In this document: one piece after another, positions 3,340-50,665 of the stretch
Numbering within the stretch: the stretch's first letter is position 1
Layout: each line of letters opens with the position of its first letter
Assembly (NCBI GenBank): GCA_003605055.1
Contig: QZKP01000020.1
Span: 124,001 to 188,000, forward strand
DNA: 64,000 nt
Reading direction: 5' to 3'
DNA from: Desulfarculus sp.
Lineage (GTDB): Bacteria > Desulfobacterota > Desulfarculia > Desulfarculales > Desulfarculaceae
The notes under the pieces: generated by a model
What the model was told of the DNA's origin: nothing
Seen by the model: only the letters and a program-made list of their open reading frames with translations
The model's database searches: none
Position numbers and translations under genes: made by a program

Positions 3340-4716
3340 CTAAACCGGGCGGCCGGGCCGACGCAGGCGGCGGTGCAGGAAATAAAAGACCAGGCCGGCC
3401 AGGATGGTCAGGCCGGCAGGCAGGCCGCGCAGGGGCTCCTCCCAGAGGGAGAAGCCCGCGATGCCCAGGTTCACGGCCACGAAGGCCAGGGGCGTGAAGG
3501 GATAGCCCGGCACCCGGAAGGGCGGGGCCTGCGGCTGCCGGCGGCGCAGGAGCAGCAGCCCGGCCACGGTCAGGGCCGCGAACAACGACAGGGTGAAGCC
3601 GATGTAGAACAACAGGGCCTGGAAGGAGGCGGTCAGCACCAGCACCGCGGCGATGAGCGACTGCAGCAGTACCGCGTTGATGGGCACCCGGGAGTGAGGC
3701 GGCACCCGGGCCAGGGCCCCGAAGAACACCCCGTCGCGGGCCATGGCGAAGTAGACCCGGGAGCCGGCCAGTATCATGGCCCCGATGTTGGACAGCAGGC
3801 AGAAGCTCACCGCCAGGCTGAACAGGCCGCCGGCCCGGGGTCCGAACAGGACCTTGGCCGCCAGGGCGCCGATCTCCTTGACCCCCAGCATGCCCGCCGG
3901 GCCCAGGGCGGCCAGGTAGGCCAGGTTGATCAACAGGTACAGGAGCACCACCAGCCCGGTGCCCAACAACAGGGCCAGGGGCAGGTTGCGCTGCGGCCGC
4001 TCTATCTCCTCGCCCAGGTAGGCGGCGGCGTTGAAGCCGCTGTAGGCGAAGAAAATGAAGATCAGGGACAGGGCCAGGCTGCCGGCCAGGTGGCCCGCGG
4101 GCGGGGAAGCCGCCTGGGCCTGCCAAACCCCCGCGGCCGGCCACAAAGCCAGGCCCGCCACCACCAGCACCACCAGCAGCAGTAGCTTGAGCGCGGTGAG
4201 CAGGTTCTGCACGCCCAGGCCCACGGCCAGGCGCCGGGTGTGCACCAGGGTCAGCGCCGCGATGAAGCCCAGGGCCAGCAGGCTCTCGGGCGAGATGGTC
4301 ACCAGCCCGCCCCGCCACCAGACCACCCCGGCCCCGCCGGGCCAGGCCTGCAGCAGATAGGCGGCCGCGGCCATGGCCGAGGCGGCGATGGGCGCCGAGA
4401 AGCCCACCACCAGCGAGATCCAGCCCGAGAGGAAGGCCCACAGCGGCCCGAAGCTCTCATTGAGGAAGGCGTAGTCGCCGCCGGCCCGGGGCAGGCGGGC
4501 CCCCAGCTCGGCGTAGGACAGGGCCCCGGCCAGGGCGATGACCCCGCCCAGCAGCCAGGCCCCCAGCATCAGCATCGGGTCGGCCAGCATCTGCATGATG
4601 TAGCCGCTGGTGGTGAAGATGCCGGTGCCCACCATGTTGGCCACGATCAAAAAACCAGCCGAAAGCAACCCTACCCGGCGGCTGAGGCCGCCGCTATTGG
4701 CTCCGCCACTGTCCAT
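3340..4716 (-). CDS. APC-superfamily amino acid/polyamine permease
   Basis: An integral inner-membrane protein of 458 residues with about twelve hydrophobic segments. The first segment holds the G-x-G-I-F motif (V-G-T-G-I-F) typical of amino acid-polyamine-organocation transporters, which couple amino acid uptake or exchange to ion gradients. The ORF can be extended upstream to 4875, but the extension crosses the divergent promoter region and is not conserved-looking; the ATG at 4716 has GGAG seven bases ahead, so I take that start. The substrate cannot be read from the sequence. It is transcribed away from the heme/tetrapyrrole methylase gene, and the shared intergenic palindrome suggests common control. 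Confidence 0.85.
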   Translation of the reverse strand: MDSGGANSGGLSRRVGLLSAGFLIVANMVGTGIFTTSGYIMQMLADPMLMLGAWLLGGVIALAGALSYAELGARLPRAGGDYAFLNESFGPLWAFLSGWISLVVGFSAPIAASAMAAAAYLLQAWPGGAGVVWWRGGLVTISPESLLALGFIAALTLVHTRRLAVGLGVQNLLTALKLLLLVVLVVAGLALWPAAGVWQAQAASPPAGHLAGSLALSLIFIFFAYSGFNAAAYLGEEIERPQRNLPLALLLGTGLVVLLYLLINLAYLAALGPAGMLGVKEIGALAAKVLFGPRAGGLFSLAVSFCLLSNIGAMILAGSRVYFAMARDGVFFGALARVPPHSRVPINAVLLQSLIAAVLVLTASFQALLFYIGFTLSLFAALTVAGLLLLRRRQPQAPPFRVPGYPFTPLAFVAVNLGIAGFSLWEEPLRGLPAGLTILAGLVFYFLHRRLRRPGRPV

Positions 4717-4767
4717 CTGGTTCTCCAGGCCCCGGTGATGGGTCTTTTTTGCTTGACAGCCGGGGCA

Positions 4768-4810
4768 TACTATGTCTTTTTTGGCATATATGTCAATCGT
4801 GACATATGCT
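4768..4810. promoter_or_regulatory. Divergent promoter pair with an operator-like palindrome
   Basis: A perfect dyad, ATATGTCA-ATCG-TGACATAT, spans 4788-4807 in a locally AT-rich stretch. On the minus strand its left arm supplies a TTGACA -35 (4796-4791) with TAGTAT 18 bases on (4772-4767) for the permease. On the plus strand, TTGGCA (4781-4786) and TATGCT (4805-4810) are 18 bases apart, placing the dyad in the spacer. TGTCA-N4-TGACA has the size and symmetry of a CRP/FNR-superfamily site, but the regulator is not in the window. Confidence 0.55.
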
Positions 4811-4893: not shown

Positions 4894-6639
4894 ATGATGC
4901 GCAAGTTAGCCCTTTTGTTGGCTGGGCTGGCGCTCCTGGCCGCCGTCCCCGCTGCCGCCCAGGACAAACCCGTGCTGCTGACCGTCTCCGGGCTGGTCAA
5001 GCAGCCCCTGCGCCTGGACGCCGAGCAACTGGCCCGCCTGGCGCCGGCCACGGTGAAGCTCAATGATATCAACTCCGAGGGCGATTTCGGCGGCGTTTTT
5101 TGGCTGCGCGGCGTGCCGCTCAGGAGCCTGCTGGAGCTGGCCGTGGTGGACAAGGAGGCCGGCGGCTTTAACAAGCTGACCGACCTGGCCATCTTGGTGC
5201 ACAGCCGGGACGGCCGCCAGGTGGCCCTATCCTGGGGCGAGGTGTTCCACCGCAACCCGGCCGAGACCATCATCGCGCTCAGCTCTTCGCCGGTGATGCC
5301 CCACAAGAGCTGCCAGGCCTGCCACCAGCCGGATGTGTACCAGCCCTGGCTGAGCCAGCTCCAGCGCACGGTAGGCATCCCCAAGCTGGCGGTGGCCGGC
5401 GACTTCTACAGCGACCGCAGCCTGGAGGGGGTTGACCGCATCGAGGTGGTCTGGCCAATGCCGGCCCAGTGGGGCCCCAAGCAAGACAAGCTGTTTTCGC
5501 CCTCACTGGTGGTGCAGCTTCCCGGCGGCCGGCAGGAGTATAAGAGCCTGCCCGCCCTGCCCCAGCAACAGGTGCAGGCCCTGCAGGTGGGCGAGGGCAA
5601 GGGCTTCCACGGCCACTACCGGCTGCGGGGCGTGGCCCTGCGCGACCTCCTGGCCCATCAGAAGGTCAAGGCCGACCTCAACTCCGTGTTCGTGGTCAGC
5701 GCGCCGGACGGCTACCAGTCCCTGGCCTCCTACGGGGAGCTTTTCCTGCGCCCCGCCGGGGCCCGGATCATCCTGGCCGACCGCAAGGACAACAAGCCTA
5801 TCGAGGCGGGCGGGCGCTTTGAACTGGTCTTTCCCGACGATCTTTGGGCCGACCGTTGGGTAAAGGCGGTCTCCCGTGTGCAGGCGGTGTCCTTGGCGCC
5901 CAAGGCCCGCCTTTTCGTCATCGGCATGGGCTGCGGGGACACCAGCCTGCTCACCCTGGACGCCCTGAGCCGCCTGGCCCAGGCCGAGGTGCTGGTAGCG
6001 CCCAAGGACATAGAAAAGCGCTTCGCCTTCTATCTGCGCGGCAAGCAGGTCCTGTTCGACCCCATGGCCGTGGGCAAGAAGCCCTTCACGGCCCCGGGCA
6101 CCCATAAGAAGGTGGCGGACCGCCAACGTCTGCGCGCGGAGCAGGCGGCCGCCGCCGAGCGGATCAAAAAGGTCCTGGCCAGCGGCAAGAGCGTGGCGGT
6201 GCTGGACTGGGGCGACCCCATGGTCTACGGCTCCTGGCGCTGGCTGGCGGACTTCGTGCCCCAGGAGCAGTTGACCATCGTGCCCGGCCTGAGCGCCTTC
6301 AACGCCGGCTCGGCGGCGCTCAAGCGCGACATAACCTGCCGGGGCGCGGTGGCCATCAGCGACCCCTTCACCCTGCTCAAGGACCCGGGCCTGGCCAAGC
6401 AACTGGCCGCCAAGAACGCCACCCTGGTGGTGTTCATGGGCCTGCCCAAGCTGAAGCAGGTGCTGGGGGTGGTCGAGAGGGCCTACCCGCCCCAGACCCC
6501 GGCCGCGGTGGTCCTCCGGGCCGGCTACGCCCAGGCCCAGCGGGTGGTGAGAGCGCCGCTGCAGGACCTGGCCGCGGAGTTGGCCAAGATCAAGGAAGGC
6601 TGGCTGGGGGTGATCTTCGTGGGCCCCTGCCTGCGTTAA
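4894..6639 (+). CDS. Exported sulfite-oxidase-like/cytochrome c/tetrapyrrole methylase fusion
   Basis: A 581-residue protein with unusual architecture. Residues 1-23 form a Sec signal peptide (basic MMRK, hydrophobic core, A-A-A cleavage region). Two repeats resembling small molybdopterin-binding oxidoreductase domains (V-S-G-L-V-x-x-P-L ... D-G-R / D-G-Y) follow at about 26-190 and 200-335. A c-type heme site, C-Q-A-C-H, is at 140-144. From about 339 to the end is a tetrapyrrole (corrin/porphyrin) methylase domain with G-M-G-C-G-D-T-S-L-L-T-L, close to the SAM-binding G-x-G-P-G-D motif. The heme site and signal peptide imply a periplasmic location, which is odd for a SAM-dependent enzyme. 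The ATG at 4894 (or 4897) has GAGGAAG ahead; the longer ORF has no leader-like start. It is followed by a TonB receptor. The methylase half may bind rather than methylate a tetrapyrrole. Confidence 0.78.
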   Translation: MMRKLALLLAGLALLAAVPAAAQDKPVLLTVSGLVKQPLRLDAEQLARLAPATVKLNDINSEGDFGGVFWLRGVPLRSLLELAVVDKEAGGFNKLTDLAILVHSRDGRQVALSWGEVFHRNPAETIIALSSSPVMPHKSCQACHQPDVYQPWLSQLQRTVGIPKLAVAGDFYSDRSLEGVDRIEVVWPMPAQWGPKQDKLFSPSLVVQLPGGRQEYKSLPALPQQQVQALQVGEGKGFHGHYRLRGVALRDLLAHQKVKADLNSVFVVSAPDGYQSLASYGELFLRPAGARIILADRKDNKPIEAGGRFELVFPDDLWADRWVKAVSRVQAVSLAPKARLFVIGMGCGDTSLLTLDALSRLAQAEVLVAPKDIEKRFAFYLRGKQVLFDPMAVGKKPFTAPGTHKKVADRQRLRAEQAAAAERIKKVLASGKSVAVLDWGDPMVYGSWRWLADFVPQEQLTIVPGLSAFNAGSAALKRDITCRGAVAISDPFTLLKDPGLAKQLAAKNATLVVFMGLPKLKQVLGVVERAYPPQTPAAVVLRAGYAQAQRVVRAPLQDLAAELAKIKEGWLGVIFVGPCLR

Positions 6640-6694
6640 GGCTGGTTAAGCACAAGAGAATGAATCGGCTGAAGGAACTGGGAGGAGAGAGGTA

Positions 6695-8779
6695 ATGCAA
6701 GTCGTGAAAAGGACTTTATTGGCCTGGGTAATCATGGGCCTGGTCTGCGCGCCGGCCGCGCTGGCCGAGACCAAGCCCATCGCACCCAGCCCGGAGTTCC
6801 AAGTGTACCGGCTGGGCGAGGTGGTGGTCTCCGGCGACCACCCGGCGGTGGCCAACATCAGTATCGCCAGCGACGTCAGCGCCCAGGACATACAACAGAC
6901 CCACAGCCTGACCGTTCCCGAGGCCCTGAGCTACGCCCCGGGCGTGACCGTCACCAGCGGGCGCAAGAACGAACCCGATGTGCGCATCCACGGCTTCGAG
7001 CAGTTCGAGTCCCTGATCCTCATTGACGGCGTGCCCTACTACGAGACCAACTACGGCAAGCTCAACCTCAACCAACTGCCCACCGAGATGATCGCGCGCA
7101 TTGACGTGATCAAGGGCGCGCCCTCGGTGCTCTACGGGCCCAACGCCATGGCGGGCGTGATCAACATCATCACCAAGCAGGCCAGCGATAGGCCGACCTT
7201 CAGCGCCCTGGCCGAGGTGGGCGAGTACGGCGCCTATCGCCTGACCGCGGCCCACGGCAATACCCTGGGCAAGTTCAAGTACTGGCTCAACGCCAACCGC
7301 CTGGAGCGCAGCGGCTGGGGCCTGTCCGACGACTACACCCCCCAGGCCACCACCATCATCAACCGGCCGGGCAAGACCACCTCGGCCGTGGTCCAGGGCG
7401 GCGGCGAGCGGGTGAATGCCGACACGCGCCAGAGCAGCGTCTGGGCCAAGGTGGGCCTGGACCTGGCCCCGGAGTCGCAGTACTTCCTGAGCGCCTACTA
7501 CATGGACTCCTCCTGGGGCTTCCCGGTCAACACCGTGGAGGAGCGGGTCTTCACCAGCCGCCCGGCCTTCTCCACCTTCGCCCGCATGGACAAGTACGAG
7601 GACTGGGGCCTGGACCTGAGCGGCGAGCAGCGCCTGAGCAGCTCCTTCAAGCTGCGCGGCAAGCTGTTCTACCACTACCACCTGGACGACTACACCTCCT
7701 TCTCGGACCAGACCTACAGCAAGGTCATCGCCGTCAGCCGCTTCAAGGACTACTTCGCCGGCGGCGCCCTCTACGGCGACTGGCAGCTCCACCCGGCCGA
7801 CACCCTGCGCTTCGCGGCCCACTTCCGCCAGGACAGCCACCAGGAGCGGGCCGACACCTACCTGCCCTTCACCGAGGCCCTGTCCTACACCGGCTCCCTG
7901 GCCCTGGAGAACGAGTGGAAGCCCTTCGCCGGCTTCGCGCTGGTGGCCGGGGTGAGCTACGACTGGTTCGAGGTGGACAAGGCCCAGACCAACGTGACCA
8001 GCAGCTCGGGCGCCTGGGTGCGTACCGATGATCTGGACACCGGGGACAAGAAGGATTCCTTCAACCCCATGATCGGCGCCTCCTACATTTTCGCCGATTC
8101 CACCCGGCTGTTCGCCTCGGTGGCCAAGAAGACCCGCTTCCCCACCCTGCAGCAGTTGTTCGCCAGCAAATCCGGCAACCCCGCCTTGGAGCCCGAGGAG
8201 AGCGTCAACTACACCCTGGGCGTCTCCCGCCGCTTCCTGGACAACAAGGCCTGGGGCCAGGTGGCGCTGTTCTACCACGACGTCAGCGACCGCATCTCCC
8301 GCGACGGACCGCACCTGGACTCGGTGTACCGCAACTACGCCAGCATCATCCTCTACGGCGTGGAGATCGCCGGCGAGTACACCCCGTGCAAGAATCTCAC
8401 CCTGCGGGCGGACTACACCTATCTGGTGGCCCGGGACGAGAGCGACGGCCGGGTGACCGACGACGTGCTGGGCGCGCCCAAGCACAAGGTGGACCTGCGG
8501 GCGGTCTACACGGTGCCCCAGGTGCAGACCCGCCTGATCTTGCAGGGTTTGTACATGGGTTCGCAGTTCGACCAACTGCCCACCCCGGCCAGCCCCACCC
8601 TACAGACCCTGGAGACCGACGGCTACTTCCTGGCCAACTTCAAGCTGGTGCAGCCCCTGGGCAGCCACCTGGAGGCCTTCGGCTTCGTGCAAAACATCTT
8701 CGGCAAAGACTATGAGATGGAAAGCGGCTACCCCGGCATGGGGCGCACCTTCTGGATCGGCCTGCGCACCAAATTCTAA
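6695..8779 (+). CDS. TonB-dependent outer-membrane receptor
   Basis: A 694-residue outer-membrane receptor. It has a signal peptide (about residues 1-24, ending A-L-A), a plug domain (about 30-165, with V-P-E-A-L-S-Y-A-P-G-V and I-D-V-I-K-G-P/A-S-V-L-Y-G motifs) and a long beta-barrel ending in an aromatic residue (K-F), as expected for Bam-dependent insertion. Such receptors import siderophores, cobamides, hemes or metals with energy from TonB/ExbBD, which are not in the window. A strong GGAGGAGAGAGG SD precedes the ATG. It lies 55 bases after the exported tetrapyrrole-methylase-like gene, so the pair probably handles one ligand, perhaps a tetrapyrrole; no cobalamin riboswitch was found upstream. 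Confidence 0.9.
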   Translation: MQVVKRTLLAWVIMGLVCAPAALAETKPIAPSPEFQVYRLGEVVVSGDHPAVANISIASDVSAQDIQQTHSLTVPEALSYAPGVTVTSGRKNEPDVRIHGFEQFESLILIDGVPYYETNYGKLNLNQLPTEMIARIDVIKGAPSVLYGPNAMAGVINIITKQASDRPTFSALAEVGEYGAYRLTAAHGNTLGKFKYWLNANRLERSGWGLSDDYTPQATTIINRPGKTTSAVVQGGGERVNADTRQSSVWAKVGLDLAPESQYFLSAYYMDSSWGFPVNTVEERVFTSRPAFSTFARMDKYEDWGLDLSGEQRLSSSFKLRGKLFYHYHLDDYTSFSDQTYSKVIAVSRFKDYFAGGALYGDWQLHPADTLRFAAHFRQDSHQERADTYLPFTEALSYTGSLALENEWKPFAGFALVAGVSYDWFEVDKAQTNVTSSSGAWVRTDDLDTGDKKDSFNPMIGASYIFADSTRLFASVAKKTRFPTLQQLFASKSGNPALEPEESVNYTLGVSRRFLDNKAWGQVALFYHDVSDRISRDGPHLDSVYRNYASIILYGVEIAGEYTPCKNLTLRADYTYLVARDESDGRVTDDVLGAPKHKVDLRAVYTVPQVQTRLILQGLYMGSQFDQLPTPASPTLQTLETDGYFLANFKLVQPLGSHLEAFGFVQNIFGKDYEMESGYPGMGRTFWIGLRTKF

Positions 8780-45474: not shown

Positions 45475-47034
45475 ATGCAGCGTTTCCAGGTGCCCGACGT
45501 AATCATCACCGACGTCATCGCCAGCCACGGCAAGTGGCGGGCCAGCAAGCCGGCCGTGATCTGCGAGGACGACTCCATCACCTGGGGGGACTTCAACCGC
45601 CGGGTGAACCAGGCGGCCAACCGGCTCAGGGCCCTGGGCCTGGCCAAGGGCGACAAGGCCAGCTTGTTGTGCGGCAACTGCATCGAGATGCTCATCAGCC
45701 TGTTCGGCATCATCAAGGCCGGCGGCGTGGCCGTGCCCCTGAGCGTGATGGTGCAGGGCGAGTCCCTGGCGCGCATGGTGGTGGACTCGGACAGCAAGTT
45801 CCTCCTGGCCCAGGCGCCCATGGCCCCGGTGATGAACGCCTTTCGGGACCAGTTCACGGCCATCGCCCCCGAGGGCTACGTGGTCATCGGCGGCCAAGCC
45901 CCCGGCTGGACGCCCTTCTACGACTTCCTGCTCCCGGCCGCGGACACGGAGCCCGGGGTCAGGCTGGTCTATGAGGACCCCATCAACATCATGTACACCT
46001 CGGGCACCACCGGCGTGCCCAAGGGCATCCTGCACAACCACCACAACCGCACCCACTTCGCCCTGTCCTTCGGCATGGACTTCCGCTGCGACTCCAGCGC
46101 GGTGAGCATCGTCACCACCGCCCTGTACGCCAACGGCACCTGGCTGACCATGCTGCCCACCATCTTCGGCGGCGGCACCCTGGTGGTGATGACCAAGTTC
46201 GAGCCCCAGGAGTTCCTGGCCCTGGCCGCCCGGCACCGCTGCACGCACACCTTCATGGTGCCCACCCAGTTCACGGTGCTCTTGGAGCAGGAGAACTTCG
46301 GCCAGTACGACCTCAGCTCCATGCGGGTGTGGCTCTCGGCCGGCAGCCCCTTCCGGCCCCAGACCAAGCGCGAGGTGCTGGAGCGCTTCCCGGGCGAGCT
46401 GATGGAGCTGTGGGGGCTCACCGAGGGCGTGGCCACCACGCTGAAGCCCGAGCACATGCGCGCCAAGACCGAGTCCGTGGGCCTGCCCCTGGTGGGCTGG
46501 GACGTGGCCATCATAGACGAGCAGGGCCAGCGCCTGCCGCCCAACCAGTCCGGCGAGATCGTGGCCTTCAGCGTCTTCCTGATGCCCGAGTACTACAAGC
46601 TGCCCGACAAGACCCAGGAGGCCATCTGGCTGGACGAACAGGGCCGCACCTTCCTGCGCACCGGGGACATGGGCAAGCTGGACGAGGACGGCTTCCTCTA
46701 CGTCCTGGACCGCAAAAAGGATATGATCATCAGCGGGGGCATAAACATCTTCGCCAGCGACATCGAGGAGGTGGCCGCCAAGCACCCGGCGGTGGCCGAC
46801 GTGGCGGTGATCGGCCTGCCCCACCCCAAATGGGGCGAGACGCCGGTGGCCCTGGTCATCCCCAAGCCCGAGGCCGCGGCCGGGGCCGGGGAGATAAAGG
46901 ACTGGCTCAACCCCCGCCTGGCCAAGTACCAGCGGGTGAGCCAGGTCATCATCCGCCAGGACTTCCCGCGCAACGTGCTGGGCAAGGTGCTCAAGCGCGA
47001 GCTGCGCGACGAATACCAGAACCTGGCCGGTTAG
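45475..47034 (+). CDS. Acyl-CoA synthetase (AMP-forming, fatty-acid type)
   Basis: A 519-residue ANL ligase with I-M-Y-T-S-G-T-T-G-V-P-K-G, a W-G-L-T-E motif, R-T-G-D-M-G and the lysine in V-L-G-K-V-L-K. The ATG at 45475 with AGGAGGT ahead is chosen over the upstream frame, which overlaps the SDR gene. Its stop codon overlaps the stop of the convergent gene of the peptide locus by four bases (TTAG shared by both strands). Confidence 0.9.
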   Translation: MQRFQVPDVIITDVIASHGKWRASKPAVICEDDSITWGDFNRRVNQAANRLRALGLAKGDKASLLCGNCIEMLISLFGIIKAGGVAVPLSVMVQGESLARMVVDSDSKFLLAQAPMAPVMNAFRDQFTAIAPEGYVVIGGQAPGWTPFYDFLLPAADTEPGVRLVYEDPINIMYTSGTTGVPKGILHNHHNRTHFALSFGMDFRCDSSAVSIVTTALYANGTWLTMLPTIFGGGTLVVMTKFEPQEFLALAARHRCTHTFMVPTQFTVLLEQENFGQYDLSSMRVWLSAGSPFRPQTKREVLERFPGELMELWGLTEGVATTLKPEHMRAKTESVGLPLVGWDVAIIDEQGQRLPPNQSGEIVAFSVFLMPEYYKLPDKTQEAIWLDEQGRTFLRTGDMGKLDEDGFLYVLDRKKDMIISGGINIFASDIEEVAAKHPAVADVAVIGLPHPKWGETPVALVIPKPEAAAGAGEIKDWLNPRLAKYQRVSQVIIRQDFPRNVLGKVLKRELRDEYQNLAG

Positions 47035-47900
47035 GAGGGCTCCCCGCCGGCCCCCTGGTCCCGGCCGGCCAGGGCCCGCCACTGCTCCCGGGCCTGGGCG
47101 ATCTCGCCCAAGGCCTGGGACAGCAGGGCAAAGGCCTCCTGCCAGGCCTGGCAGGAGGCGGCCTGATAGCGCAGGAACCCCCGGCAGAAAAAGAAGAACT
47201 GGCAGGCCAGGCACTCGGGCTGCAGCCGGGGCAGGCCCTCCTGATACTCCCGCAGCCCGCGGCCGGGGCCGCTCTGTTGCCAGGCCCCGGGCGGGTCCCA
47301 AACGCTGCCCAGGCAGCGCCCGGCGGCCAGGTCATCGTAGCTGGCGGCCAGGTTGCCCTCCTGGTCGGCGAAGAGGTAGCGCTCGGGGTTGCAGCGGGCC
47401 AGTTCCCACAGGTCCAGGTTGCGGCTGTCCAGCAGGCAGGCCAGGATGGTGTGAAAGGGCTCCAGGGGCGCCTGCAGGGCGTGGTGGTGCAGATAGTGCT
47501 CCAGCAGCCCCCCGGCCTGCTCCTGGCTGATGGCGCTGCGGTTGTAGAGCAGGTCCACCGGCAGGCCCAGGGAGGCGGCCAGGCGGGCCTGCTCCAGCAG
47601 CCCCGGGCCGGAGGCCAGGCGCACCAGCACCCCGCCCCGGGCCAGGCGGTGGATGTTGTCCACCAGCTCCTCCACGCCTGAGGGATAGACCACCATGCCC
47701 CGCTCCCCCAGCTTCTGTTGCCGGGGGGCGCCGGACAGGGGGCCGAAGTAATCCACGCCCACCGCCTGCGGGCCCAGTTGCGCCAGGCCTTCCTCGATCA
47801 GGGCCCCGTCGCGGCCGTAGAGCACCACCTGCAAGGGCAGGCGCTCAGACCAGGCAACCAGCGGGGGACAGTGCATACTCAGCGGCGCGTCCGCGGCCAT
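47031..47900 (-). CDS. Cysteine-rich SPASM-like partner protein of the peptide locus
   Basis: A 289-residue protein I do not recognise. It has no CxxxCxxC radical SAM motif, but its C-terminal half carries Cys170, Cys196, Cys230, Cys233, Cys239 and Cys250; C230-x2-C233-x5-C239 matches the core of a SPASM auxiliary-cluster domain, with the rest degenerate. The N-terminal part has alternating beta/alpha character, so it may be a radical SAM protein that has lost its catalytic cluster and acts as partner or recognition subunit. It starts at ATG 47900 with GGAG seven bases before, and overlaps the second radical SAM gene by 56 bases, which implies tight coupling. It is the last gene of the locus. 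Confidence 0.65.
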   Translation of the reverse strand: MAADAPLSMHCPPLVAWSERLPLQVVLYGRDGALIEEGLAQLGPQAVGVDYFGPLSGAPRQQKLGERGMVVYPSGVEELVDNIHRLARGGVLVRLASGPGLLEQARLAASLGLPVDLLYNRSAISQEQAGGLLEHYLHHHALQAPLEPFHTILACLLDSRNLDLWELARCNPERYLFADQEGNLAASYDDLAAGRCLGSVWDPPGAWQQSGPGRGLREYQEGLPRLQPECLACQFFFFCRGFLRYQAASCQAWQEAFALLSQALGEIAQAREQWRALAGRDQGAGGEPS

Positions 47901-49038
47901 AGCATATCTCCGGCAGGGGTTCCGGCTCCTGGTCCGCCCGGGGGGCGCCGAACACCTGCTCGAAAAAGTATTTGCGGGCCTGGCACCAGGTGGTGGGGCG
48001 GAAGGGGTCGCCGTAGGTTATCTCCGGGTCCACGTAGCAGCCGCCGTGGCAATAGCGCCACCAGCCGCAGCCCCGGCAGGCGCTGAGCTGCAGGTAGATG
48101 ATGCGGTTGGCGCAGCGCAGCCGCACCGGCGAGTCCAGGATGGCGGCCAGGTCCTGCTGAAGGATGTTGCCCAGGGGCTGGGTGCCCCGGTCCACGCCGC
48201 GGCCGCAGGTGTAGATGGTGCCGTCGGCGTCCACCCCCAGGTGGGAGCTGGCGCAGTTGCCCGACTCCTCGCAGCACAGGTTGTTGGTGATGCCCTGGTG
48301 GTGGTACTCGTGCAGGGCGCTAAAGGGGTCCCAGCGCTGCTGGGTGCCGCTGTCCAGCCACAGGCCGTACATCTCCACCATGAAGCGGCCCCACTGCTCA
48401 GGGGTGAGGTGGTAGTGCTCGGAGCCCGGTCGGCCGGCTCGGCCCTCGGGGTACATGGGGTTCATGCGCACTGGGATGTCGACGAACTCACCGGCGAGGC
48501 ACGCGAACACCTCCGCCGCCCGGTCCAGGGAGTAGCGGTGCACGGTATAGACCAGGCCCAGGGGCTGGCCCTCCTGGCGGGCCAGGCCCACCGAGGCCCG
48601 GAAGCGCCGGTCGTAATCGCCCTGCTTCATCAGGCGGATGCCGCCGATGGGGTCGAAGCTGGTGCCGATGGGCCCCGGGGTTCCGTCGTCCAGGCGCAGC
48701 AGGCGCTTGAGCAGCCCGGCAATGTCCGGGTTGTAGGCCAGCAGGTTGGACTGCATGATGTTGTTCACCTCCAGCCCGGCCGGCCGCAGCAGCTCCTCCT
48801 GCAGCTCCAGAACCAGCTCGTAGAAGGAGGCGGGCATCAACAGGGGCTCCCCGCCGTGCCAGGTGAACATCACCCCGCGCAGGCCCCGCTCGGCCTGCGC
48901 GGCCAGGCGCTGGTGCAGCAGCCGCAGCGTCTGGCGGCTCATGGTCAGGCGAGGATAGTGCTCCTTCCAGGCCGAGCAGTACACGCAGGCCGCGTTGCAG
49001 GCGTTGGTGGGCTTCATGATCAGGGTGGCGTATTCCAT
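47845..49038 (-). CDS. Radical SAM/SPASM enzyme 2 of the peptide locus
   Basis: A 397-residue radical SAM protein with the catalytic Cys14-x3-Cys18-x2-Cys21 motif for the [4Fe-4S]/SAM site (A-C-N-A-A-C-V-Y-C) and a G-G-E-P-L stretch. The C-terminal half is a SPASM-type domain with two more clusters' worth of cysteines (C-C-E-E-S-G-N-C, I-Y-T-C-G-R-G, C-R-G-C-x5-C-H-G-G-C). This build resembles anaerobic sulfatase-maturating and peptide-crosslinking enzymes. It should modify the repeat peptide encoded upstream, for example by C-C bond formation. It follows enzyme 1 by three bases. Confidence 0.88.
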   Translation of the reverse strand: MEYATLIMKPTNACNAACVYCSAWKEHYPRLTMSRQTLRLLHQRLAAQAERGLRGVMFTWHGGEPLLMPASFYELVLELQEELLRPAGLEVNNIMQSNLLAYNPDIAGLLKRLLRLDDGTPGPIGTSFDPIGGIRLMKQGDYDRRFRASVGLARQEGQPLGLVYTVHRYSLDRAAEVFACLAGEFVDIPVRMNPMYPEGRAGRPGSEHYHLTPEQWGRFMVEMYGLWLDSGTQQRWDPFSALHEYHHQGITNNLCCEESGNCASSHLGVDADGTIYTCGRGVDRGTQPLGNILQQDLAAILDSPVRLRCANRIIYLQLSACRGCGWWRYCHGGCYVDPEITYGDPFRPTTWCQARKYFFEQVFGAPRADQEPEPLPEICYGRGRAAEYALSPAGCLV

Positions 49039-49041
49039 GGC

Positions 49042-50022
49042 CTAGCCTATCTGGGCGATGTCCCGCTCCAGGTAGTGGGAGATGCAGCCGCCCGAGCACT
49101 GCCGGCGCTCAAGGAACTTGCAGGAGGCGCATTTGTCGTACAGGCCCTTTTGCTCCAGCTCCGGCTGGAACATGCCGGTCAGGTGCTTGACCAGGGCCTC
49201 CAGGTCGCTGAACTGGGTGAGCAGCACGCTCTTGGTGGCCGACAGGGGGAAGCAGAACCAGACCTTGAGGTCCGGGCCGATGTCAATGGGCGGGCCGCAG
49301 GTGAAGTTTAGCTGCGCGTCGCAGCGGAACAGGGCCCCGATCTGGGCGTCGCTGAACAGGCACAGGGGGAAGCCGCAGTCCATGATGATCTTGATCCCCT
49401 GCTTATCGCACTCCGCGGCCAGGGCCAGCACCTGCTCCACCACCCGTGGGTAGTCGGCCACGGGCAGGCCCAGGTTCTGCCGGCCCACGATGGGCTGGGC
49501 CAGGCCCAGGCGCAAATGGGAAGTCAGCTCGTAGCGGGCGATGGTCTCCAGCAGAAAGGAGAAGTCGTGGTCGGCCCGGAATATGTTGAAGCTCAGGGAG
49601 GCGTTCTGCTTCAGGCTGGCCATGACCCGGCGCTGGCTGGCGTCCTCTTCGGCGCTGCGCAGGTGCCCTTCGTTGAGGTTGATCACCAGGCACAGCTCCT
49701 GGCTGCTGGGGGCGAAGTCGGCCAGCACCGCGCCTATCTCCGCCAGCACCGGCGGGGCCATGACGCCGTTGGTGAACACGTTGACCAGGAAGTGGCGGCC
49801 TAGCACGTAGCGCAGGAAGTGGGCGAAGCGGGGGTGCAGGGTGGGCTCGCCGCCCAGGATGTTCAGGTGCTTGGCGCCGGAGCCGTCCAGGAAGTCCAGC
49901 ACCGTCACCAGGTTGGCAAAGGAAAGCTGGTGCTGGGCCGTGGGATCCTGGCTGAGCTTCTCCTTGGCGAAGCAGTAAGGGCAGTTGCGATTGCAATAGT
50001 CTGTGAATAGCAGGTTGGGCAA
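49042..50022 (-). CDS. Radical SAM enzyme 1 of the peptide locus
   Basis: A 326-residue radical SAM protein with Cys10-x3-Cys14-x2-Cys17 (Y-C-N-R-N-C-P-Y-C) and G-G-E-P-T. The C-terminal part has C-G-P-P, F-C-F and a C-x2-C-x6-C-x3-C run (K-C-A-S-C, Q-C-S-G-G-C), so an auxiliary cluster is likely. It is the first enzyme gene after the precursor, 112 bases away. Two different radical SAM enzymes in one locus recall the paired maturases of the His-Xaa-Ser (Hxs) systems, although the precursor differs. Confidence 0.87.
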   Translation of the reverse strand: MPNLLFTDYCNRNCPYCFAKEKLSQDPTAQHQLSFANLVTVLDFLDGSGAKHLNILGGEPTLHPRFAHFLRYVLGRHFLVNVFTNGVMAPPVLAEIGAVLADFAPSSQELCLVINLNEGHLRSAEEDASQRRVMASLKQNASLSFNIFRADHDFSFLLETIARYELTSHLRLGLAQPIVGRQNLGLPVADYPRVVEQVLALAAECDKQGIKIIMDCGFPLCLFSDAQIGALFRCDAQLNFTCGPPIDIGPDLKVWFCFPLSATKSVLLTQFSDLEALVKHLTGMFQPELEQKGLYDKCASCKFLERRQCSGGCISHYLERDIAQIG

Positions 50023-50134
50023 GTGGATTCCTCAGCGGGAGCGAAGCGACCTTGCGCCAAGACGCGCCGGACGCCGCCCGGGCAGAACCCCGGCCGCCGG
50101 CCGGCGGATAGACACCGGAGGCTTCACCAGTGAT

Positions 50135-50521
50135 TCAGGACCGGCTGTACTTGCCGTAGTTCACGTATTTGCCGTAGTTAACGTACTTGCCGTAGTTGAT
50201 GTACTTGGAATAAACGATGGAACTGGTGGAGTACTGCCGGCTGTAGGCGCCGTAGTTGGTGTAGGCGCCGTAGTTGGTGTAGGCCCCGTAGTTGGTGTAG
50301 CTGCCCGAGCTGCTGGAGGAGTCGCTGTAGACCGAATAGCCGCTGCTGTCGCTGCTGCCGCCGCCTCCTCCGCAGCTCCCCCCCTGCGGCCGCAGGGCGC
50401 CGTTTTCACCCACGCCTATGCCGCCCACACCCACGATCAGGCCGCAGACGGCCAGGGACCATTTTCTGAGATTCTTGAGGAAATCACGCCTGGTGCCGCC
50501 ATTAGTGCTGGACGCACCCAT
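50135..50521 (-). CDS. Putative RiPP precursor: Tat leader plus Tyr-x-x repeat core
   Basis: A 128-residue protein. Residues 8-38 look like a Tat signal: T-R-R-D-F-L-K followed by a hydrophobic stretch. A Gly/Ser-rich linker (about 45-70, with G-G-S-C-G-G-G-G-G) leads to two repeat blocks. In block 1 (75-93) Tyr-Thr-Asn and Tyr-Gly-Ala alternate three times; in block 2 (104-125) Tyr-Ser-Lys, then Tyr-Ile/Val-Asn and Tyr-Gly-Lys alternate three times. Tyr thus recurs every third residue, and the third position is mostly Asn, Lys or Ala. The ATG at 50521 has GGAGG five bases ahead; the ORF start at 50536 does not. It directly precedes two radical SAM genes on the same strand. Known triceptide RiPPs carry aromatic-x-Asn/Asp/Lys/Arg cyclophanes, which fits, but homology is not shown. 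Confidence 0.72.
   Translation of the reverse strand: MGASSTNGGTRRDFLKNLRKWSLAVCGLIVGVGGIGVGENGALRPQGGSCGGGGGSSDSSGYSVYSDSSSSSGSYTNYGAYTNYGAYTNYGAYSRQYSTSSIVYSKYINYGKYVNYGKYVNYGKYSRS
50147..50212 (-). repeat. 18-bp tandem repeats encoding the Y-x-N-Y-G-K block
   Basis: About three copies of an 18-base unit (plus-strand form CCGTAGTT-A/C-ACGTA-TTTG-type), each coding Tyr-Ile/Val-Asn-Tyr-Gly-Lys. The reading frame is kept and synonymous changes are few. Confidence 0.75.
50243..50299 (-). repeat. 18-bp tandem repeats encoding the Y-T-N-Y-G-A block
   Basis: Three copies of an 18-base unit (plus-strand GCGCCGTAGTTGGTGTAG), nearly identical, coding Tyr-Thr-Asn-Tyr-Gly-Ala. Confidence 0.8.
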
Positions 50522-50665
50522 GGTACCCTCCGTCATGGCAGATTTAGAGGTATTCGCGGACCCGGCTGGTTAAATTAGGCAGCTAGACCGCAGTCGCCTC
50601 ATCTTCAATACAAAGGCCAAGATGTATAAAACGAGCTGATGGTCTTTTCGCTGCTGTAGCTATCT

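Follow-up and report, generated by a model that had tools for sequence, protein, structure and literature searches.

An exported fusion of sulfite-oxidase-like repeats and a tetrapyrrole-methylase domain next to a TonB receptor in Desulfarculus sp., under an operator shared with molybdenum and tungsten genes

Introduction

The tetrapyrrole methylases (TPMs) CbiF/CobM, CbiL/CobI, and CysG/CobA (PF00590) share their fold and, for the most part, their cofactor-loop motifs with one domain of a fusion protein encoded in Desulfarculus sp., on a stretch of 64,000 nucleotides that was analyzed as a whole and is referred to as the window (assembly GCA_003605055.1, contig QZKP01000020.1, positions 124,001 to 188,000). 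Unlike these enzymes, the domain belongs to a group of TPM proteins that are exported, fused or arranged in tandem, and situated beside TonB receptors. For the N-terminal part of the fusion protein a precedent is given by PruR, which is described as an exported protein of the sulfite oxidase fold that lacks the cysteine of the molybdenum cofactor (Moco), binds small pterins, and is unlikely to accommodate Moco (PMC13259868). Export, fold, and loss of the Moco cysteine are thus common to PruR and the fusion protein, but the family of the latter is distinguished by two repeats, in most members a heme c motif, often a TPM domain, and a TonB locus.

On the level of gene arrangement, TonB-dependent metal uptake loci are comparable, since they share the TonB receptor and, in counterparts of our locus, ExbB/ExbD/TonB-like (L089, L092) and FecCD/ABC-like genes (L085), which, as the CbiMQO genes mentioned below, were named by sequence likeness only. 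They differ in that the soluble partner here has a methylase fold instead of being the usual binding protein and in that the regulon is one of molybdenum and tungsten. With regard to regulation, short ModE proteins consisting of the DNA-binding domain only were reported in the delta-proteobacteria (PMC545781), and a ModE of this short type is also encoded in the genome studied here. A literature search returned no paper on a TonB receptor for tungstate or tungsten, and no published description of exported TPMs with TonB receptors was found among titles and the beginnings of abstracts.

Results and Discussion

The operator of the fusion gene is shared with molybdenum and tungsten genes

The gene of the fusion protein (4894-6639, plus strand, 581 amino acids) is followed by that of a TonB-dependent receptor (6695-8779, plus strand, 694 amino acids). 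About 90 bp upstream of the fusion gene, in a promoter region shared with a divergently oriented permease gene, an exact inverted repeat, TATGTCA-N4-TGACATA, is located at positions 4789-4806. This operator core is the sole exact match in the entire genome. A second copy with two mismatches was detected by pattern search at 4771-4788, and a TTGACA box resembling a -35 element was read at 4753-4758 on the plus strand; such a box precedes the operator in all eight upstream regions that were read (close relatives, window included). Both the divergent permease and the inverted repeat had been missed by the original prediction, a reading of the bare sequence.

Allowing up to three mismatches, 25 forward sites occur in the Desulfarculus genome, one of them exact, compared to a chance expectation from base composition per 3.6 Mb of 0.0005 exact, 0.03 one-mismatch, and 0.83 two-mismatch sites. 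The one-mismatch site and one of the two-mismatch sites belong to a locus with tupA, tupC/tupB, a short modE, moeA genes, and fdhD (L155). Another two-mismatch site is situated 105 bp upstream of a molybdenum hydroxylase operon, and one further two-mismatch site has no evident target. The names TupA, TupB, ModE, MoeA, and hydroxylase are backed by Pfam or NCBIfam, in case of the first three below the curated cut-offs; TupC and FdhD rest on reading of the sequence.

In seven related genomes, 22 forward sites with up to three mismatches were counted versus 2 sites of the reversed control pattern. Their targets include AOR genes in G005, G010, and G019 (Pfam) and in G009 (likeness). Further targets are fdhD-moeA next to tup genes, one Porin_O_P gene, and two additional TonB receptors; several sites lack an evident target. 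The AOR gene of L128, the porin and MoaA-like genes of L135, and the mod genes of L006 and L007 were named by sequence likeness only. A further 23 genomes, whose sites had not been used to define the motif, contain 50 forward versus 4 control sites at up to one mismatch. All 16 exact sites, but only a few of the 34 one-mismatch sites, were inspected: 12 of the exact sites precede seven molybdopterin oxidoreductases (formate-dehydrogenase-like), four AOR-family genes, and one fdhD, two precede small proteins (one of them DUF2080), and for the remaining two no clear target was recognized. Consequently, the operator ties the fusion gene to tup, modE, moeA, and molybdenum-enzyme genes in its own genome; in relatives, the genes linked in this way are AOR, formate-dehydrogenase-like, fdhD, and tupA.

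Since the operator is common to molybdenum and tungsten genes in its own and in other genomes, the gene pair is placed in a molybdenum/tungsten regulon. That fusion protein and receptor together constitute a TonB-dependent uptake module within this regulon is a proposal to which we assign an even chance. Transport genes for both metals provide further supporting context. ModE-ModABC genes are neighbors of the fusion in L005, where profiles identify them, and, judged by likeness, in L006 and L007; TupA-like genes were found in L088, L089, L097, and L177, and WtpA in L087.

Among loci encoding the N-terminal part, 11 of 19 contain the operator at up to two mismatches (15 sites; mean of shuffled sequences 0.2), compared to 3 of 29 loci with an exported TPM protein lacking this part. 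The operator therefore goes along with the N-terminal module and the clade to which it belongs, but not with exported TPM proteins at large.

Several other gene types were observed downstream of the operator. Two further TonB receptors are located at L120:6643-8749 and L129:1455-3056 (G004 and G010), so receptors of more than one kind may belong to the regulon. Genes resembling phosphate-selective porins are found at L131:3539-5026 (Porin_O_P by Pfam) and L177:3738-5174, possibly a second outer-membrane route for oxyanions. Small, mutually similar proteins are preceded by the operator in three genomes (L241:1582-2021, L237:3470-3781, and L127:5018-5496), one of them matching DUF2080 and two matching no Pfam model.

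Architecture of the fusion protein

The original prediction had described a Sec signal, two sulfite-oxidase-like repeats, one CxxCH motif, and a TPM domain in a single chain, followed by a TonB receptor. These sequence features were confirmed as real. The open reading frame begins with ATGATG, and the N-terminus MMRKLALLLAGLALLAAVPAAAQD displays a Sec-like layout without twin arginine; the putative signal peptide comprises about residues 1-23 (4894-4962, plus strand). Signal peptides were assessed by eye and by a hydrophobicity score.

The repeats occupy about residues 27-334 (4972-5895, plus strand). Two stretches are matched by Pfam Oxidored_molyb (PF00174), the better one at residues 231-332 with an E-value of 5e-6 and 26.6 bits (cut-off 24), and thus the sulfite-oxidase-like repeats appear real, though weak by profile. 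The fusion protein resembles the sulfite oxidase family in this above-threshold match, but its leader is Sec-like instead of twin-arginine-like and no cysteine is conserved outside the CxxCH. Indeed, in seven aligned N-terminal proteins the only conserved cysteines are those of the CxxCH (residues 140 and 143), and therefore the cysteine ligand to molybdenum that characterizes sulfite oxidase enzymes is absent from these seven. A profile of the N-terminal part searched against the PDB yielded chance-level matches, topped by two RNA helicase entries and followed by the pterin-binding protein 7rkb (E 0.62) and the sulfite oxidase 6y0k (E 0.75). With a link at E 0.62 only, the N-terminal part was not recognized as a member of the PruR sequence family.

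The CxxCH motif (C140/C143/H144) lies at 5311-5325 on the plus strand. By sequence the fusion protein thus combines export and CxxCH as c-type cytochromes do, and heme attachment at this motif is putative. A further exported CxxCH protein was noticed at L097:7355-9881, where three consecutive genes encode an FmdE-domain protein carrying the motif, a TPM protein that is likewise exported, and a protein similar to TupA.

The TPM domain (class III methyltransferase fold) extends over residues 339-581 (5908-6636, plus strand). Pfam TP_methylase (PF00590) spans residues 340-560 with an E-value of 1.3e-37 and 130.3 bits, compared to a cut-off of 27.8. An AlphaFold2 model of the domain reached a predicted local distance difference test (pLDDT) score of 76.7, and its best Foldseek match is 4e16 (CbiF/CobM; E 2.8e-14, TM score 0.57). 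The model displays the two-lobed fold of the class and resembles CbiF/CobM with E-values of about 1e-14, at query-normalized TM scores of only 0.52-0.61 among the matches listed. A profile built from 15 exported TPM domains likewise finds 4e16 as best PDB match (E 1.4e-34). In case of NCBIfam the best match is cobI_cbiL with 72.6 bits versus a cut-off of 163.25, and all listed scores for the named methylase equivalogs (CbiF, CbiL, and CobA) are below their cut-offs. The domain is probably derived from a CbiF/CbiL-like methylase.

The loop motifs GDP, PG, and GxGPGD are taken here to be motifs of the S-adenosylmethionine (SAM) site. The comparison with the active site of CbiF that the original prediction had called for gave a mixed picture. 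Most exported TPM domains retain motifs of the GxGxGD-like, GDP, and PG types, which can be aligned with those of CbiF; GDP is invariant in the 15 exported domains and the glycine-rich first loop is kept. On the other hand, GPGD of CbiF is replaced by GCGD in the window protein and its relatives in the Desulfarculaceae, so that GxGPGD reads GMGCGD in the window protein. SAM binding by the domain is putative. We know of no free SAM in the periplasm, and a binding domain, as the original prediction had proposed, is therefore more likely than an active methylase.

Distribution and phylogeny

Seven further genomes of the genus were searched, and full-length fusions with 54-63% identity were found in five of them (G004, G005, G006, G009, and G010); G007 and G008 gave none. 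Because such relatives exist, the layout is not due to chance. Within the same family, G003 has a fusion copy with an internal stop, and in G019 the N-terminal part is encoded alone and adjoins a TonB receptor. The relatives include metagenome-derived genomes, and many of the relatives' genomes are in pieces.

Among 198 genomes sampled from the phylum, 14, including that of the window, contain a match to the N-terminal part. Its fusion to a TPM domain was observed in G000, G129, G157, G205, G147, and G145 and, with broken frames, in G207, and it is encoded alone in G027, G051, G123, G197, and G064; the match in G087 is a fragment and that in G146 is weak. A tree was built from 76 TPM domains, with the cytosolic FmdE-linked ones treated as a separate group. 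The 12 fused domains, from several Desulfobacterota families, form one clade in it (support 100/94), which is embedded among other TPM domains of the exported and FmdE-linked kinds. The original prediction had suggested a search for the same fusion in other genomes, which was thus successful, and had named separate encoding in close relatives as evidence against it. The latter was encountered in part, as the N-terminal part stands alone in G019 and the five genomes named above, yet the fused TPM domains still represent a single clade.

A sister of the fused clade is encoded in G011, where hgcA and hgcB (both above NCBIfam cut-offs) are followed by an exported TPM protein (L166:8443-10696); a two-mismatch copy of the operator is located at 9783 of L166. 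The hgcAB-TPM link is regarded as a single case, since TPM was absent from all 30 other hgcA loci checked (about 1.5 kb on each side; 56 hgcA places were listed, and G011 is outside this sample). The genome of the window itself contains an hgcA (L211:7710-8786), beside which no TPM gene was read.

Neighboring genes

The receptor is classified by its Plug (E 1.9e-24) and barrel (E 1.8e-36) domains, both detected by Pfam. It matches models of B12 and hemin receptors far below their cut-offs, and a siderophore-receptor model scores higher. The divergent gene encodes an L-type (LAT/SLC7-like) amino-acid exchanger permease of the APC superfamily (3340 to about 4716, minus strand), supported by NCBIfam TIGR00911 (E 1.4e-67, below its cut-off) and by LAT2 in the PDB (E 5e-51). 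The open reading frame extends to 4875, and the start near 4716 is our choice.

Exported TPM proteins with signal-like leaders occur singly, in tandem, and fused, in many families. Within 5 kb of them a TonB receptor was found in 34 of 40 loci (2 receptors in 425 kb of control loci), an L-type permease in 21, and nearby a DUF4198 protein in 14, the latter two with no occurrence in the same control. In this count the cytosolic TPM genes of L137 and L138 were left out, the short contigs L084 and L177 were scored as lacking a receptor, and the assignment of DUF4198 and permease families relies on Pfam matches of one representative each. The original prediction is thus partly supported, namely with regard to export and a functional link to a TonB receptor.

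Elsewhere in the window, a region on the minus strand (47031-50536) encodes a protein of 133 amino acids whose leader resembles the twin-arginine type and which contains a repeated YTNYGA tract; two radical-SAM-like reading frames and one further reading frame come after it in the same orientation. By its sequence this region looks like a modified repeat-peptide cluster.

Proposed role and alternative explanations

As a best guess, the cargo is a chelate of molybdenum or tungsten, and the TPM domain serves as ligand binder. Scarcity of these metals would derepress the promoter, perhaps via the short ModE protein. The receptor would then import molybdate or tungstate as an organic chelate, which in the periplasm would be received by the exported fusion protein and bound by its sulfite-oxidase-like repeats and TPM domain. 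The c-type heme, where present, may move electrons and so loosen the metal from its ligand, and the metal would finally be handed to a binding protein of the Tup, Mod, or Wtp type. PruR is the precedent for ligand binding by an exported sulfite oxidase fold that lacks the cysteine. With regard to the regulator, the short DNA-binding-only ModE is our leading candidate, because its gene adjoins the operator in L155 and the ModE match of G019 is about 200 bp from a site.

A number of observations weigh against this proposal. The operator is missing at up to two mismatches from 8 of the 19 N-terminal loci, including L005 and L007 of the genus of the window itself. In 15 of 19 N-terminal proteins the CxxCH is retained, a count that leaves out the weak G146 match and the G087 fragment; it is absent in L007, L090, L092, and L094, two of which are fusions, and heme is therefore not essential to the fusion protein. 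A model of the full-length fusion from a seven-row alignment is too poor to be used (pLDDT 57, predicted TM score 0.34). Concerning the regulator, ModE profile matches occur in 25 of 30 genomes without any reaching the curated cut-off, they are present in G001, G002, and G008, which have no sites, and G027 contains a one-mismatch site without a ModE match. Known ModE motifs were considered as identity of the operator and rejected, since TATGTCA-N4-TGACATA differs from both the E. coli and the Desulfovibrio consensus sequences printed in PMC545781. Due to this difference and the sub-threshold matches, the assignment of the regulator is a guess. Finally, the operator is absent from the loci of the majority of exported TPM proteins, which occur with DUF4198 and in one case with CbiMQO-like genes, an indication that the wider family serves other metals.

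Import of a corrinoid or heme, with the TPM domain holding the tetrapyrrole in its former precorrin pocket, is close to the cargo favored by the original prediction. In its favor are the closeness of the fold to CbiF/CobM and CbiL, the scores of the receptor on B12 and hemin models, though far below the cut-offs, and the one exported TPM relative encoded directly downstream of hgcAB, since HgcA is a corrinoid protein. Riboswitch control was rejected, because no Rfam match at gathering threshold was obtained in the window and nine N-terminal-domain loci, and hence no cobalamin riboswitch was seen there; in ten exported-TPM loci two tRNAs were the only matches at this threshold. Together with the higher-scoring siderophore-receptor model and an operator that belongs to molybdenum and tungsten genes, this makes a tetrapyrrole cargo unlikely in our view. 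Salvage of pterin or Moco, in which a pterin or pterin dithiolene would enter through the receptor and be bound by the sulfite-oxidase-like repeats, we judge similarly unlikely. The fold of Moco-binding proteins, the weak matches to 7rkb and 6y0k, PruR, and the molybdenum/tungsten regulon agree with it, but these matches are at chance level and surpassed by unrelated RNA helicases, PruR is itself described as unlikely to fit Moco (PMC13259868), and the TPM domain would be left without a role.

An active periplasmic methylase appears still less probable. Here the L-type exchanger would carry SAM out and S-adenosylhomocysteine in, and the exported TPM protein, whether single, tandem, or heme-fused, would methylate a TonB-imported ligand in the course of molybdenum or tungsten acquisition and, in other loci, perhaps of nickel or cobalt acquisition; this general scheme we likewise consider very improbable. 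The retained loop motifs and the frequent permease speak for it. Against it, no permease is located within 5 kb in 19 of the 40 loci, a cysteine replaces the GPGD proline in the window protein as well as in its relatives among the Desulfarculaceae, and to our knowledge no member of this permease family exports SAM. Little probability is also given to a redox or signaling function, in which the heme c acts as a sensor that signals the arrival of the ligand to the TonB system and has no part in cargo handling. CcsA-like genes (Pfam Cytochrom_C_asm) that immediately precede the N-terminal domain in L084 and L092 are in line with such a sensor, but no signaling partner was seen and the CxxCH is missing from four of the 19 proteins. 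Since the L092 fusion lacks the CxxCH despite the adjoining CcsA-like gene, this pair is not simply readable as its heme loader.

Conclusions

For the passage of scarce molybdenum and tungsten across the outer membrane of anaerobes that depend on enzymes of these metals, the locus offers a candidate receptor and a candidate periplasmic partner. Moreover, the repeated use of exported proteins of the methylase fold that are tied to TonB receptors challenges the view of this fold as only cytosolic and biosynthetic.

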